From assembly GCA_013388645.1 (NCBI GenBank), contig JACAEV010000112.1, positions 1 to 53,737 of the forward strand: 53,737 nucleotides of DNA. Reading direction: 5' to 3'. Below are positions 15,467 to 26,235 of this stretch, piece after piece. This stretch comes from Syntrophaceae bacterium (GTDB lineage Bacteria; Desulfobacterota; BSN033; UBA1163). Each line of letters begins with the position of its first letter. Positions within the stretch are counted from its first letter, which is position 1. Made by a program: the position numbers and the translations under genes. The notes below the pieces were generated by a model. The model worked only from the letters and a program-made list of their open reading frames with translations. It searched no databases and was not told where the DNA came from.

Positions 15467-15700
15467 ATGACCACACAAGCCAAGAGAGCTACAGTATATT
15501 TGGACCCTGATTTACATAAGGCATTGCGGCTGAAATCAGCGGAGACTTCCCGATCTATATCCGAGCTTGTCAACAATGCCATCAAAGAAGCCCTTGCAGA
15601 AGATGCTGAGGATATTGCGGCGTTTGAGGAAAGGTCTAGAGAGCCATTGATTAGCTACGACGAAATGGTCAAAAGGCTAAAGAGAGATGGCCGTATATAA
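15467..15700 (+). CDS. Ribbon-helix-helix antitoxin (RelB/CopG-like)
   Basis: A 77-residue antitoxin. The N-terminal beta strand and two helices of a ribbon-helix-helix fold are clear (KRATVYLDPDLHKALRLKSA then SRSISELVNNAIKEAL), which should form a DNA-binding dimer. The acidic, flexible tail (EDAEDIAAFEERSREPLISY) is the usual toxin-masking part. The ATG at 15467 has GGAGG 7 bases upstream. Its end overlaps the toxin start by 14 bases. It should neutralise the toxin and repress the shared promoter. Confidence 0.9.
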   Translation: MTTQAKRATVYLDPDLHKALRLKSAETSRSISELVNNAIKEALAEDAEDIAAFEERSREPLISYDEMVKRLKRDGRI

Positions 15701-15944
15701 GGTCCTTTTCAAAGCCTCTGTTGAGAAAGATTTTGCCGCAACACCCAAGAAGGATCTGAAGAAGATCCTCAAACGTATTGAAGGGCTCTCTGAGAATCCA
15801 AGGCCGTGGGGTTGCGAAAAGCTGACAGGGCAAGAGAGATATCGACTCCGCCAGGGACGGAATCGCATCGTCTATTCGATCCAGGACGATGACCTCACGG
15901 TTTGCATCGTCAAAGTGGGACACCGTAAAGACATTTTTCGGTAA
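15687..15944 (+). CDS. RelE/ParE-family toxin
   Basis: An 85-residue toxin of the RelE superfamily, with the usual pattern of an N-terminal strand (YKVLFKASVEKDF), two helices (PKKDLKKILKRIEGL), then PWGCEKLTG, YRLRQGRNRIVYSI and the C-terminal VKVGHRKDIFR. The Arg residues in RLRQGRNRIVY and the HRKDIF end are kept as in active mRNA interferases, so it is likely functional. RelE cleaves mRNA at the ribosome, while ParE inhibits gyrase; the sequence fits RelE better. It overlaps the antitoxin gene by 14 bases. Confidence 0.9.
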   Translation: MAVYKVLFKASVEKDFAATPKKDLKKILKRIEGLSENPRPWGCEKLTGQERYRLRQGRNRIVYSIQDDDLTVCIVKVGHRKDIFR

Positions 15945-17152: not shown

Positions 17153-17386
17153 ATGAAACGGGTTCCAATTGGTTTAGAAAACGATCTTTATGAGACATTA
17201 AGGGAGCGAGCATCTCGGGAGAAGAAATCGATTGCGGAAGTAGTTTGCGAGATTATAAAAAGAAACATTTCCCCATCGGGAGGCCGACGATCTTCTTCGG
17301 CCCAAAATTTTGCTTTTATTAGCGTATGCCGTTCAAAGCAGGTTCCTCTTAAGCCATTATCCGAGAGACACGATGATGCCCTGTAG
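17153..17386 (+). CDS. Orphan ribbon-helix-helix antitoxin, ending at an in-frame TAG
   Basis: A 77-residue CopG-like protein with a recognisable RHH part (KRVPIGLENDLYETLRERAS, REKKSIAEVVCEIIK). Its tail ends PLSERHDDAL, close to the SERHDExLAE ending of VapB-type antitoxins. Beyond the TAG at 17384-17386 the same frame continues without interruption for 20 codons (ELFQKGLPSINSDEFPYESI) to a second TAG at 17447-17449. This looks like a nonsense mutation in the tail. No PIN-domain toxin follows, so the gene is probably a decaying solitary antitoxin. Confidence 0.6.
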   Translation: MKRVPIGLENDLYETLRERASREKKSIAEVVCEIIKRNISPSGGRRSSSAQNFAFISVCRSKQVPLKPLSERHDDAL

Positions 17387-17516: not shown

Positions 17517-19484
17517 TTATTGCCTTTCATTTAGCGTCCAGCGAGGGACCACTTGTTCTCTGTAACCTTCAGGGCGATCTCCATTCAGGAGATAACAGGC
17601 ATACGAAACTTCAGGTTTCCTCGGAATTTTGCCAGAATGGGCTGAATTGCAGAACGGACTTTTCAATCTACCATGATCTTTCTTTGCCCAGAATTTATCG
17701 TAGCAATCTTTTAAATTCTTCACTCCTTCTTTTACATCCTGGCCCCAACGTCCTGCAAAAACAAGCCACCATACCTGTCCTACATTGACTTCACTGGGAT
17801 TTAACCAACCATTTCCCGCATACCGTATAACTTTCCCACTCTCCGATCCATAACCATTGAAGAGATAGTTTTCTAAATCCTGAAAAAGTGGAGATTTGAT
17901 CCCTTTTTGGACTTCTCCTACCGGCACTTTCCCCTTAAGAATTAAATCTTCTTTATGTATAATTTCACGAGTATTCACCACCCGCACAAGATTATAGTAA
18001 GCCTCCTCGGCTGAACGGGTTGGCCTGGCCAAAGATTCTATCAGAAAGTGTAAAACTGCCCCATTTAATTCTGGATGAATCGATGACTTCCAGGCAAAAT
18101 GAGCCTTTGCTTGAATGGCTTCTCTCAACTTTTCTGTAGAGTCTGTATAACAAGCTCCCGTATAAAAAAGGGTTTTTTTGAACGAGACTGGACGGGCTAC
18201 AACCCACTGTAAATAGAACCAAAAATAAGGTTTAATTGAAACAAACCAGGCAGAGTCTTGTTGAACCTTTAGGTCAAGTTCAACTTTCATTATCCCTACC
18301 CCATCATTCTCAACTAACCTTCTATGACCGGCACCCTTGAGGCGATTTTTGAGTTCCTCAAACTTCTGATTTGCTTCATCCACATCATCTGTTTCAGTTA
18401 ATTGCTCACCAATCAATAGAGAACCACTGCTTGTCCCATGGGTTAAAAATATGACAATTCCTGGATCTTTCAAATCTATAAAGGTTTTAATCAATCTTTC
18501 CACGGTCACGTCTTCATCCTTGAGTTCTTTAATGTTGTAACCGCGTTTTTCCAAACGCTCCTTGATTTTATCCCATGGAAGGCCTTCAGTGAGTTTAGAA
18601 ACAACTCCACTGTTTTTTGCCTCACTGAAAAGTCTATCAAACCAGCTAATGATTCGGCCAGTGTGGAGCGGAGAGATGAAAAGCGCAGTTTTGTTATCAG
18701 GATCAAACTTTGTATTACCGCTCGGTTTTGCATTCAGATGGACACGTGGGTCAGTAACAAGCTTGCTTGGTTTAAGTTCAAGTGTTCCAGGAGGTGGAGG
18801 GGACCAGCTGAAAAGGAGAATCTCTGCCTTTGTACCATCTTCATATTCCACTTCTATGCCATTTTTTAATGGTCTGACCACCTTTGGCAACTTATTTTGG
18901 CTATTTGATGCATTAGCAAGACTCATAAAGAAGCTCTTTGCTTGTCTTTTCCCAATCTGAATAACGGCATTAGCAAAATCAACAGCACGAGTAATCGCTT
19001 TATCGGCATCGATTTTTGGTGCTTCACTTAGCACCTCTCCCCGGAAAACAAATGTCACCGCACGTTCCACTATAACGGGTTGACGCTTCCATCGCGATGT
19101 CCCCCTGTCAGAGGAAAAAAGCCGAAAAGGCATCCCCACTTCATCCTTTTGCAAATCGATGGGGAATGTAGTGTTTACCCGAAGTTCCTCTGTTTGAAAC
19201 TGGAGGGAAAGTTGCCCACTTCGGTAAGACCAGGTTCCCTTCATGGCCATATGATCGCTTTTACCTTCTACATAAATAATGGCACGGCCATCAGGTTCAA
19301 ATAGGAGAATTACATCGGTATCCTTAGTCGGTTTGGTTCCATTATCATCGGAAATATGGTAGTAAAGGTTTTGAATAGGTGAGATGATTCGGGTCTGACC
19401 AAGGATAAGTTTTGGCCCCATCGTTGTAAGAAGAATAAAAATTGCAACAGGAAGAATCGCAAGATAAACTTTTTTCCCTTTCAA
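17517..19484 (-). CDS. Secreted caspase-like (clan CD) cysteine peptidase candidate
   Basis: A 655-residue exported protein with a signal peptide (1-29). An N-terminal beta-rich, lipocalin-like part covers about 35-150. A possible peptidase domain begins near 265 with a hydrophobic strand (TALFISPL), a helical segment and the caspase-like pattern RGYNIKELKDEDVTVERLIK. It then shows the two clan CD blocks: GIVIFLTHGTSSG with H349-G350 and KTLFYTGACYTDS with A444-C445. These are the expected catalytic dyad, though their 96-residue spacing is wide. The C-terminal 150 residues are unrecognised. The start is a TTG at 19484, well supported by AAGGAGGAG. It lies downstream of seven co-directional envelope genes, 316 bases away. 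No named family is claimed; the fold assignment is inference. Confidence 0.7.
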   Translation of the reverse strand: MKGKKVYLAILPVAIFILLTTMGPKLILGQTRIISPIQNLYYHISDDNGTKPTKDTDVILLFEPDGRAIIYVEGKSDHMAMKGTWSYRSGQLSLQFQTEELRVNTTFPIDLQKDEVGMPFRLFSSDRGTSRWKRQPVIVERAVTFVFRGEVLSEAPKIDADKAITRAVDFANAVIQIGKRQAKSFFMSLANASNSQNKLPKVVRPLKNGIEVEYEDGTKAEILLFSWSPPPPGTLELKPSKLVTDPRVHLNAKPSGNTKFDPDNKTALFISPLHTGRIISWFDRLFSEAKNSGVVSKLTEGLPWDKIKERLEKRGYNIKELKDEDVTVERLIKTFIDLKDPGIVIFLTHGTSSGSLLIGEQLTETDDVDEANQKFEELKNRLKGAGHRRLVENDGVGIMKVELDLKVQQDSAWFVSIKPYFWFYLQWVVARPVSFKKTLFYTGACYTDSTEKLREAIQAKAHFAWKSSIHPELNGAVLHFLIESLARPTRSAEEAYYNLVRVVNTREIIHKEDLILKGKVPVGEVQKGIKSPLFQDLENYLFNGYGSESGKVIRYAGNGWLNPSEVNVGQVWWLVFAGRWGQDVKEGVKNLKDCYDKFWAKKDHGRLKSPFCNSAHSGKIPRKPEVSYACYLLNGDRPEGYREQVVPRWTLNERQ

Positions 19485-19800
19485 AATATCTCCTCCTTAT
19501 CCCGATGTCTCACGAGAGGAATTTCCATTTTGAGCCAGCAACCATTTTCTCCATTTTTTGTTTTATTTTCATCAGAGAATATGGGGTCATCCATTTTAAA
19601 GGCACCTGTCAAGAGAAAAAATTATTCCTCATGCCCCTTTATAAAATCTATTAAAATCTATTAACCCATCTGCAAATTTCTCTTCCCCAAGGATACTCTG
19701 AGCGTTAACATCATCCCAAATTCGATGACCTCCTATCCCATCAAAAACGAATTCTCTATATCTTTTCTCTGCCACTCTTCAATGGGTGACCCCAAATCCT
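19485..19800. other. Intergenic gap in the minus-strand envelope cluster
   Basis: About 315 bases between the RDD gene and the caspase-like gene, with no credible gene. No strong hairpin terminator or promoter stands out, so it is unclear whether the caspase-like gene is expressed with the genes upstream. Confidence 0.4.
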
Positions 19801-22485: not shown

Positions 22486-23556
22486 TTATGGATTTTCAGA
22501 TGTCGTTGCCTTGCCGATCCATCCTTCCTGGCCATCCTCAAGTCTGACACGAATCCATTGTTCCTTCTCTTCTAAGATCTCAAGGGCAGTTCCCTTTTTG
22601 ATCTCGGCTATGGATTTGAAATTCGTTCCAGGCCCCTCACGAAGGCTTACGGTCTTCCATTTCACATAAACCACTCGGGCTTCAGGTCCTGGTGGAGGAG
22701 CCGAACGTTGTTGTATTTGACTCGGAGCACTGACAGCTTGTTGACGTTGTGGTGTTACGGGAGGTGCTTCTGGAGTCGGAGCACCAGCCGAGATCCTATA
22801 ATACTCCTTTGGTGTCTTGGTCTCTATGACTCTTACCGCTTCATTAATGCATATTCGAATTGCCTTCTCCATTGGAGTCTTTGAATAACCACCAAAGGCA
22901 CCCGCTAAGGCCCAACCTCCCATACCAGCCATGCCACCGATATCCGTTGCTTTCCCTTCCACCTGCTCTGAGGCAAGTCTCCGACCTGTTCTCGCGTCGA
23001 CGACTTTAATGATTATCGCCACATGTGAAGTCTTAACCCCCCCGGCAATTCCTCCTATTCCTCTTGCGATGTGTCCACTTCGCCCTGGCAATGGAATGAT
23101 ACCTCCTGCTCCACCTCCTGCCCCTGCTGTTCCAGGCTCGAATTCTGTTATCGTCCCCATGATCAAGAGATCGGCTCCCTCTACTTCACCAATCCGCGCT
23201 GCTGTCTGCTGCTTGACACGGCCCGAAGCTCCCAGGTCTTGTTCCTGAAGGACGTCGTCTAAAGCTTGACGTTCCAAAACAATAAAGCGATTCGTTGCAA
23301 ATAGGGCGTTGCTCAACATCTCAGCCATGCCGTTCCCTATCTCTGATGACCCCTTTGCCGATTTATCCTCGAATCTCGTCACGGCTACCCTCGCCTTTGG
23401 TCCCATTTCGTCTTCTTGCTGAGCTTGGTCAATGGTGGGGCCTCCAGAGGGAGTGGTTCGAGCTTTGGGTTTAATGACTTGTGCTGAAGCAAAATCTGAA
23501 ACGAAGAAGATCATAAGAGTGACCAAAGCGAGAGAAAAAATGGTTGATTTTTTCAT
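22486..23556 (-). CDS. CsgG-like lipid-independent exported protein with C-terminal SH3 domain
   Basis: A 356-residue exported protein. Signal peptide 1-25 (ending ASA) has no lipobox, unlike classical CsgG, which is a lipoprotein. The CsgG-like domain (about 50-225) is marked by RVAVTRFEDKSAKGSSEIG, FIVLERQALDDVLQEQDLG, GADLLIMGTITEFEPG and the VKVVDARTGR-like block. A Pro/Gln-rich linker follows, then a bacterial SH3 domain (about 293-352, SLREGPGTNFKSIAEIKKGT). CsgG forms the curli export pore, but many CsgG-like proteins have other envelope roles, and no curli subunits are nearby. The start ATG at 23556 has AAGGAGG upstream; the long in-frame extension to 23883 lies over the preceding gene and is rejected. 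Confidence 0.8.
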   Translation of the reverse strand: MKKSTIFSLALVTLMIFFVSDFASAQVIKPKARTTPSGGPTIDQAQQEDEMGPKARVAVTRFEDKSAKGSSEIGNGMAEMLSNALFATNRFIVLERQALDDVLQEQDLGASGRVKQQTAARIGEVEGADLLIMGTITEFEPGTAGAGGGAGGIIPLPGRSGHIARGIGGIAGGVKTSHVAIIIKVVDARTGRRLASEQVEGKATDIGGMAGMGGWALAGAFGGYSKTPMEKAIRICINEAVRVIETKTPKEYYRISAGAPTPEAPPVTPQRQQAVSAPSQIQQRSAPPPGPEARVVYVKWKTVSLREGPGTNFKSIAEIKKGTALEILEEKEQWIRVRLEDGQEGWIGKATTSENP

Positions 23557-23608
23557 CAACATCCACCTCCTTTGTTTTAAAAAGATGTTGCTTGTGGTAT
23601 TTGAAGCT

Positions 23609-24283
23609 CTACCTCCTTCTCGGGCGGCCTTCAGGCATCTGGGGCATCTGGGGCATTTGAGGCATCTCAAACTTCTGAGGTGTCTCGGTAATCTGTGTCT
23701 TTGCACCGGTTCCGTATCCGAACAGGACCATCTCTGTATCCTTTGATACGGACTTGACCATCCCATAAGGGGAAACATCTTTATAGACCCAGGTATCCAC
23801 AACACCCTCTGCATCCTGATACTGAGAGTGCTGGGTCTTGAATGTCCCTGCAGGAACTTTGATCGTCTCCGTCCCTTTATCAATCACCTTACCCGTTTGT
23901 CCCTGAGCTTTCGGTGATTGTCCCATCATCTGAACAGGCATCTCCATGGCAGGTTCATTCCCTTGTTTGACGATCATTCTTTTTATATTTTTCTGATCTT
24001 CCGGATTTCCAGAGACAAGCATTTTCATGATGGTGCGTCCATGTTTTCCTCCTTCCATCACGGTTTCATACCAGTAAGCGTCTCCTTCCTTCCCAACCAC
24101 AGCCACCTTCATCTTCATCGATCCTTCCCCCTTGGTTGTGATCTGGTATTCTGACCATCCACCCACCACGGGTTTGAATTCACCACGGAATGAAGGTCCA
24201 GAGGACTGTCCCATCTGAGCAAAAGCAATTTGTGTAAGAGATAAGATAAAAAGTGTTGTTATCATCCAACTTATTTTTTTCAT
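23609..24283 (-). CDS. Secreted beta-rich protein with PQM-repeat tail
   Basis: A 224-residue exported protein of unknown function. Signal peptide 1-22 (ending AFA) is followed by a beta-rich domain resembling DUF3108-type or periplasmic lipid-binding folds (WSEYQITTKGEGSMKMKVAV, KVPAGTFKTQHSQYQDAEG, DTWVYKDVSPYGMVKS). The last 20 residues hold four PQM copies (MPQMPQMPQMPEGR), a simple tandem repeat with 9-base units. It is 52 bases from the CsgG-like gene and 41 from the gene before it. Function is inferred only as envelope-associated. Confidence 0.72.
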   Translation of the reverse strand: MKKISWMITTLFILSLTQIAFAQMGQSSGPSFRGEFKPVVGGWSEYQITTKGEGSMKMKVAVVGKEGDAYWYETVMEGGKHGRTIMKMLVSGNPEDQKNIKRMIVKQGNEPAMEMPVQMMGQSPKAQGQTGKVIDKGTETIKVPAGTFKTQHSQYQDAEGVVDTWVYKDVSPYGMVKSVSKDTEMVLFGYGTGAKTQITETPQKFEMPQMPQMPQMPEGRPRRR

Positions 24284-24774: not shown

Positions 24775-26235
24775 TTAGGGTTTGATCCGTTCACGGTTGA
24801 TCTCCTTTATTTTTTCCTCAATTTGGCCCGTCCAGTACTCCGGGCATAACCGCTTGAGACTTTTAAGCATGTGGTCAATACCGATCAGATGGGCTGCCAC
24901 TTCCATGTTGCCCCATATCGCCGTGTCATTGGCGTTGTAACGGGTGCGGTCCGTTTTACATTGACTCATATGGGTTTTTTCGTGAGCGATAATCCCCTCG
25001 ATCACTTCCTCGGGTGTGCAGTTCTTCCTGGCTTTCTCGCGGTAAGCTTGTTCGTTTACAAGATTGCAGTTCTCGTCAACTCCAATCTCATCACCCGCTC
25101 CCAACCCCTCACCTTCCTCATTTCCTCCAGCAGAGCTACTCCCAGCACCCGGGTCGCCTGGTTTTTTGTCGCACTCTAAAACACCTGCTGGAGGAGGTGA
25201 GCCGTAGAGTATTTCATAGGCCTTCCGATCGACATAACATTTATACTTGTCCATGTCTGTTGTTTTCTGTCTTGTAGCTTTGTCCAAATAGGCTTGGGCA
25301 TATGCCAGATCGTGCCTGATCGCTTCGATCAAGTGCGGGCAAGGGTCGTTGGGTTTAAACTTCCAGTGGACGGTCAGGGTCTGCTCAAAACGAGGTTTTT
25401 TCTCTTGGAGCAGGGTCTGAGAGCCGCTGCAACCGTTGGGGTTGAAGTCTATGAATACGTTGGTGGCTGCGCCGCCCAAGGGCGTTGACAGCATGTACGG
25501 ATTGGCGAGAACGACCGTGTTGGAATTTTGTGACCCAATAACTGTCTGGCTTGGTTTCGATCCGGGCGGTACAGGTTCCCACTCGAGTCGATTCTCCGTT
25601 GTGATTCCTGTGCACACATTGTGGCGCTGAGTGACGGAGTAACCGGACGTGGCCTGGAATACTTTCGTATCCAAAAAAAGATGGTATCTGCCCGCAGGCA
25701 TCCCGCCTTGCCCGGAAGACCCGGTTTTATCCGCGTATTTCCCGTCAGAAACACGGTTCATGGAAAAGCCGGGTCTATAATTGAAGGTGGTTTTGAATTT
25801 TTTTTGGGCCACTTCCGGTTCCAGAATCACTTGTTTAAGGTTCAACGCTGTTCTTTCCCAGTTTCCCGGTCTACGGATATCTAAATTTGATCGGGTACGA
25901 TGGATAGGCGTACAATCGGTCTTGTCGTACACCGTTTTAACATCCTTTTCTTGAAGATACTTGAGGTCATGTGTGACATCTCCTACCATGGCTTTACCGT
26001 TCTGTATGCAGACCTTTGCTTTTGTTGTCATGACATGTTGTGTTGAAAGCCCCTTGCCCGTGACCGTAGTGCCCGATGATGCCTGAAGAGGTTCGCTCGC
26101 CTTATTGGCTTCGTATTGAATTGTGATTTCCCCTATTACCTGGGAACTATCTGCAAAAGCAGAGTGAAACCACATCCCCATCCATAATGCGGCGAATAAC
26201 GACAAACTTATTTTCAGAATAGCTTGCTTTGCCAT
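24775..26235 (-). CDS. Secreted putative zinc metallopeptidase (HExxH)
   Basis: A 486-residue exported protein. Signal peptide 1-28 (ending AFA). Residues 30-330 form a large beta-rich region with scattered cysteines; a Gly/Ser/Glu-rich linker (about 355-380) follows. The C-terminal domain holds HEKTH (418-422) inside EGIIAHEKTHMSQC, and a Glu at 445 (NMEVAAH) could be the third zinc ligand, as in gluzincins. Conserved cysteines nearby may form disulfides. I know no named family for it. The ATG at 26235 lies 39 bases after the OmpA gene. A peptidase role is inference from the motif. Confidence 0.68.
   Translation of the reverse strand: MAKQAILKISLSLFAALWMGMWFHSAFADSSQVIGEITIQYEANKASEPLQASSGTTVTGKGLSTQHVMTTKAKVCIQNGKAMVGDVTHDLKYLQEKDVKTVYDKTDCTPIHRTRSNLDIRRPGNWERTALNLKQVILEPEVAQKKFKTTFNYRPGFSMNRVSDGKYADKTGSSGQGGMPAGRYHLFLDTKVFQATSGYSVTQRHNVCTGITTENRLEWEPVPPGSKPSQTVIGSQNSNTVVLANPYMLSTPLGGAATNVFIDFNPNGCSGSQTLLQEKKPRFEQTLTVHWKFKPNDPCPHLIEAIRHDLAYAQAYLDKATRQKTTDMDKYKCYVDRKAYEILYGSPPPAGVLECDKKPGDPGAGSSSAGGNEEGEGLGAGDEIGVDENCNLVNEQAYREKARKNCTPEEVIEGIIAHEKTHMSQCKTDRTRYNANDTAIWGNMEVAAHLIGIDHMLKSLKRLCPEYWTGQIEEKIKEINRERIKP

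Follow-up and report, generated by a model that had tools for sequence, protein, structure and literature searches.

Clan CD includes peptidases with roles in cell death, immunity and virulence; its bacterial members are mainly known through the C14, CHAT and C25 families and a few others. Gingipain (C25) and legumain (C13) are exported and carry a dyad of the His-Gly and small-residue-Cys type. In C14 peptidases, the Asp of the D-x-C motif contributes to an acidic specificity pocket. Non-metazoan C14 peptidases have such a pocket and cleave after Arg/Lys (PMC5756287, PMC6426788). Inactive caspase homologues also occur in bacteria, among them pseudo-variants that swap the dyad for Tyr-Ser (PMC6426788).

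Here, we describe a gene from a Syntrophaceae bacterium of the Desulfobacterota, found in a window that comprises positions 1 to 53,737 of contig JACAEV010000112.1. We consider it likely that the gene product is an exported cysteine peptidase whose catalytic domain is of the caspase type (clan CD), and that it represents a rare, unassigned branch. If so, the protein would be a caspase-like enzyme that is exported and in which the nucleophile block, and probably also the S1 pocket, is altered. A branch missed by every family model would also mean that profile libraries overlook part of clan CD. Only two further carriers were found in the phylum, one of them with a decaying copy, and this rarity restricts the wider importance.

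Gene structure and domain organization

The gene occupies positions 17517..19484 on the minus strand, as the preliminary description had it, and is intact, with 655 codons and a stop; a full-length homologue in another genome (G646) agrees with this extent. By our reading of the sequence, the ORF starts at a TTG codon 5 nt downstream of a Shine-Dalgarno-like AAGGAGGAG (19490..19498, minus strand). The N-terminus, MKGKKVYLAILPVAIFILLTTMGPKLILGQ, resembles a Sec signal and by inspection lacks a lipobox. We assign residues 1–29, MKGKKVYLAILPVAIFILLTTMGPKLILG (19398..19484, minus), as the probable signal.

Residues 30–140 (19065..19397, minus) form an N-terminal domain that shares 35% identity with G646 and is probably beta-rich. 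The putative caspase-like catalytic domain, residues 263–520 (17925..18698, minus), begins close to the first strand (KTALFIS) and reaches the helices beyond the Cys. Identity to G646 is 32% over residues 263–380 and 46% over residues 421–520. Between the predicted dyad residues lies a variable stretch, residues 381–420 (18225..18344, minus), with just 12.5% identity. The C-terminal region, residues 521–655 (17520..17924, minus), is conserved at 45% identity and contains GWL, VWWLxFAGRWGQD and SPFCN motifs and two conserved Cys residues.

AlphaFold returned unusable models for the full protein (three alignment rows, pLDDT 34.4) and for residues 256–520 (two rows, pLDDT 32.5). The low-confidence model has a helix at residues 5–27 and strands in the N-terminal part. 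The large N-terminal beta domain of the preliminary description is thus seen as strands, at low confidence only (pLDDT ∼34).

Relatives and distribution

The family is rare within the phylum. Our search covered 59 relatives, together with 23 genomes from the class and a further draw of 395 from across the phylum, and the sole clear match was in one genome (G006), on record CALIBK010000119.1. This copy has decayed: it carries a stop after the His block as well as deletions, one of which removes the first-strand stretch, and remnants of the C-terminal region are present further along the same region. The contig scan recovered the G006 copy alone because its patterns were taken from the N-terminal domain only. 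Four genomes of the same genus lack the gene.

The full-length relative, G646, lies elsewhere in the phylum, where a class-wide search with a two-row profile detected it. This protein of 830 aa has an N-terminus that looks export-like, and its extra N-terminal region contains a PASTA domain. Beyond this extra region the two proteins are collinear to their last residues, with 35.5% identity over 633 aligned residues. The phylum genomes searched therefore hold two carriers besides the window, the decaying G006 and the full-length G646. Plasmids, phages and viral contigs yielded no relatives of the family; the lone plasmid match of G646 spans the PASTA domain only and was rejected. Two other weak matches were also set aside, one in G011 (E 0.002, with stops) and one in G217, which is off-frame within a dnaK locus and contains six stops.

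A predicted His-Cys dyad

Alignment of the window protein with its relatives highlights one His and one Cys. H349 lies in IVIFLTHGTSSGS, within the THGTSS block (residues 348–353; 18426..18443, minus; H349 codon 18438–18440), which falls on the catalytic His in C14 profiles and, more weakly, in CHAT profiles. C445 lies in TLFYTGACYTDST, within the TGACYTDST block (residues 442–450; 18135..18161, minus; C445 codon 18150–18152), which aligns weakly on the CHAT and C14 Cys and whose A-C-x-T-D-S-T is kept in G646. Each block follows a hydrophobic run (IVIFLTHG and TLFYTGAC), as had been noticed from the sequence beforehand.

Two of the 12 His (H249 and H349) and three of the four Cys (C445, C594 and C612) are conserved with G646. 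Within residues 263–520, H349 and C445 are the only His and Cys conserved between the two full-length sequences. The H349-G350 pair is invariant in the window protein, G006 and G646, and C445 is shared by the two full-length members. Across the family the Cys block reads G/A-A-C-x-T-D-S-T (G-A-C-Y-T-D in the window, A-A-C-S-T-D in G646). The conserved pair follows the clan CD order of His then Cys, in a comparison of two full-length sequences only.

We also counted a loose motif pair, defined as a hydrophobic run plus HG and, 30–130 residues on, a hydrophobic run plus two small residues and Cys. The pair occurred in two of 20,000 shuffles of the window protein, and the studied ORF is the one frame of 44 in the window (≥150 aa) that contains it. 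The count is post hoc, since we fitted the pattern to this protein. Conservation with G646 is the best direct support for H349 and C445 as the predicted dyad, stronger than the motif-pair count. The wide spacing claimed for the dyad was borne out: 96 residues separate H349 from C445, compared with 50–87 (median 51) in 30 C14 domains and 42–79 in 25 CHAT domains.

Profile comparisons with C14 and CHAT

Curated family models do not recognize the protein. The window protein matched nothing in Pfam, NCBIfam, PADLOC or PDB sequences, and PDB sequence searches with it and with a three-member profile returned nothing relevant. Neither it nor G646 reaches the cut-off of PF00656, a PF00656 search of its own genome was empty, and the family does not match the Pfam CHAT model (PF12770). 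Matches to PepSY_2 and other Pfam families were short and sub-threshold and were rejected. PADLOC PD-T4-6 matches of G646 were not read as defence because they fall on the PASTA region.

Comparisons with the family profile point to C14. A search of 384 genomes with the two-row family profile picked out a single outside protein, L022 of G049; its E of 0.0013 for that genome is not significant by itself because L022 is the best outside match over all 384. L022 is an exported-looking protein of 457 aa with a Pfam C14 domain (1.2e-12), and the match is in register on the strand-HG (His) block. The weight of this match lies in its being to a caspase homologue, in register.

We gathered 31 C14 domains from the phylum, in 30 of which the Cys could be located, and compared them with the family by HHalign. 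The two-member family scored 34.9 (maximum of 300 column shuffles, 23.6), falling to 24.5, with one shuffle higher, when the two closest C14 sequences were removed. The three-member family scored 41.3 (P 3e-5, probability 73%; maximum of 100 shuffles, 25.5), and 32.4 against the reduced C14 set (shuffle maximum, 24.8). G646, which played no role in finding L022, scored 38.3 alone, whereas none of 73 natural protein segments exceeded 25.4. Against the reduced C14 set, the single members scored 27.2 (window) and 26.7 (G646), and the top natural decoy 28.9. In the single-sequence comparison, the window slice lay ∼33 residues further upstream than planned and included both blocks. With a plain HMMER profile built from the same C14 set, the query did not stand out from shuffles, ranking 4 of about 3000. 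An unforced MAFFT alignment with four C14 domains contained seven invariant columns, including H349, G350 and C445.

The C14 catalytic His sits in a strand-(x)HG block; the family has this feature, and HHalign places the two in register. All 30 C14 domains with a located Cys carry D-x-C-x-S/A, then G or N, around the nucleophile; the D-x-C-x-S/A-G motif is absent from the window protein and G646. Three C14 proteins from other genomes of the phylum (L025, L043 and L050) have DTCYSNG for DxCxSG and a long post-Cys insert.

Scores against 25 collected CHAT domains were barely above decoys: 25.0 for the two-member family (shuffle maximum, 24.6) and 25.2 for the three-member family (maximum of 100 shuffles, 24.4). 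The His blocks aligned in these comparisons, and a second, weak alignment sets KTLFYTGACYTDST on the CHAT ADLVVLSACETG block.

Genomic context

Upstream on the same strand are genes for an RDD protein, a 372-aa membrane protein, a CsgG-domain protein with SH3, small exported proteins, a 486-aa exported HExxH protein and an OmpA-domain protein. The cluster is patchy: relatives retain parts of it, and only a 224-aa neighbour (23609–24283) recurs beside the G006 copy, where its homologue adjoins the decayed gene at positions 1–1131 of CALIBK010000119.1 (L007). We claim no functional linkage because the OmpA/HExxH/CsgG/RDD cluster is patchy among relatives, and a gap of ∼320 bp ahead of the gene argues against a single operon with these neighbours.

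Several other frames in the window deserve mention. The 486-aa exported protein (24775–26235, minus) contains IAHEKTHMSQC (HExxH), has no Pfam match and is possibly an unassigned metallopeptidase; G013, one other family member, has a protein 83% identical to it, and most relatives yielded no match. At 22486–23883 (minus), a CsgG domain is fused to a bacterial SH3 domain, and the true start of this gene is probably further in, because the TTG called as its start lies within the end of the 224-aa gene. An 85-aa protein at 15687–15944 (plus) looks RelE/ParE-like by eye and may be the toxin of a toxin-antitoxin pair. At 17153–17386 (plus), a 77-aa frame that begins with MKRVPIGLENDLYETLRERASREKKS looks ribbon-helix-helix-like by eye and converges on the 3′ end of the studied gene.

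Proposed function and alternative explanations

The evidence makes clan CD kinship of the family probable. The preliminary description took the His-Gly and Ala-Cys blocks to be those of caspase-fold peptidases; the register of the His block on C14 above decoys and the invariant dyad support this in part, while the CHAT and Cys-half alignments are weak. The His half carries a strong clan CD signal; that of the Cys half is weaker, with order, invariance and weak alignments as the evidence. The same description held that the protein stands apart from known bacterial metacaspases. The dyad spacing does set it apart; the case for the signal peptide and N-terminal region is weak, since the C14 protein L022, from the same phylum, likewise has an export-like N-terminus and an N-terminal region. 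Judging from the aligned sequences, the true distinguishing marks are the Cys motif, G/A-A-C-x-T-D rather than D-x-C-x-S-G, and the longer His-Cys distance.

The fold, catalysis, substrate and location of the window protein are predictions, from which we propose the following scheme. Export of the family is probable, given that the window protein carries an N-terminal signal and G646 a PASTA domain. After Sec export, the protein would be periplasmic or surface-located. His349 and Cys445, each ending a neighbouring parallel strand, would form the active site, with His349 polarising Cys445 and the Cys445 nucleophile attacking a peptide bond in an envelope or extracellular protein. Residues 381–420 may form a loop or a processing site, and the N- and C-terminal domains may bind a substrate or partner or keep the enzyme inactive. 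Metacaspase-like cleavage after Arg/Lys would not be expected because the D-x-C Asp is Gly/Ala here.

Three other explanations deserve weight. The protein may have a caspase-like fold and no peptidase role, acting in binding or as a scaffold in the manner of pseudo-orthocaspases, with the dyad structural or serving another reaction. Bacteria do possess inactive caspase homologues (PMC6426788), and both the post-Cys S-G and the D-x-C Asp are missing from the family. We nonetheless regard this as unlikely: H349 and C445 are kept while the remaining His and Cys of the domain vary, whereas the described pseudo-variants replace the dyad with Tyr-Ser (PMC6426788). It is somewhat less likely still that the protein is an exported enzyme of another alpha/beta fold, in which the strand-HG and strand-C motifs arose by convergence with clan CD. 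The lack of any curated match, the pLDDT values of 34 and 32 and the drop in C14 signal once the closest C14 sequences are removed would fit such a protein. Against it, two members separately reach the full C14 set in the same register and above natural decoys, and the three-member profile exceeds shuffles in all three comparisons.

The broken G006 copy and the four same-genus genomes that lack the gene could also suggest that the gene is a relic, unexpressed or in decay, that no longer has a function. This we find very improbable for the window copy, whose intact frame of 655 codons has a strong ribosome-binding site and is collinear with G646 at 36% identity. Our preferred reading is the exported caspase-type peptidase, which probably belongs to a small undescribed branch of clan CD because the predicted dyad is kept in the only other full-length relative found.

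Comparison with known clan CD families

The protein resembles gingipain (C25) and legumain (C13) in its predicted export and, in broad terms, in its dyad type; unlike them, it has no profile match to any Pfam family. With CHAT proteins (PF12770; TPR-CHAT/Csx29), a His block and an A-C-x-T Cys block align in register at a score barely above decoys. By eye, the Ala-rich strand after the Cys, the long helix and the A-EEA motif are also CHAT-like and closer to CHAT than to C14. The family differs from CHAT in its His-Cys distance (96 versus 42–79 residues), its predicted export, its lack of a Pfam match and its marginal profile score.

Similarities to the bacterial caspase homologues of C14 (PF00656, the metacaspase/orthocaspase type), and especially to L022, include the order strand-helix-strand-HG, then strand-AC, as well as GYN-x(3)-LKD-x(3)-T ahead of the His block and A-C-Y at the Cys. 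With L022 the protein further shares an export-like N-terminus and an N-terminal extension, which is non-catalytic in L022. Unlike C14, the family has G/A in place of the D-x-C Asp, C-x-T-D in place of C-x-S-G, and 96 rather than 50–87 residues between His and Cys. After the Cys, it carries AKAxFA and SLARPTxxAEEAYYN where C14 has FTYFLLKGL, and it ends in an extra conserved C-terminal region; the protein has no Pfam match. Because the Cys motif, the spacing and the post-Cys sequence differ, the family should be placed under neither C14 nor CHAT. We lean, by a little, towards a new clan CD family of exported or surface cysteine peptidases, characterized by a G/A-A-C-x-T-D-S-T block, a long variable inter-dyad segment, a Trp/Cys C-terminal region and a specificity unlike that of Arg/Lys metacaspases.
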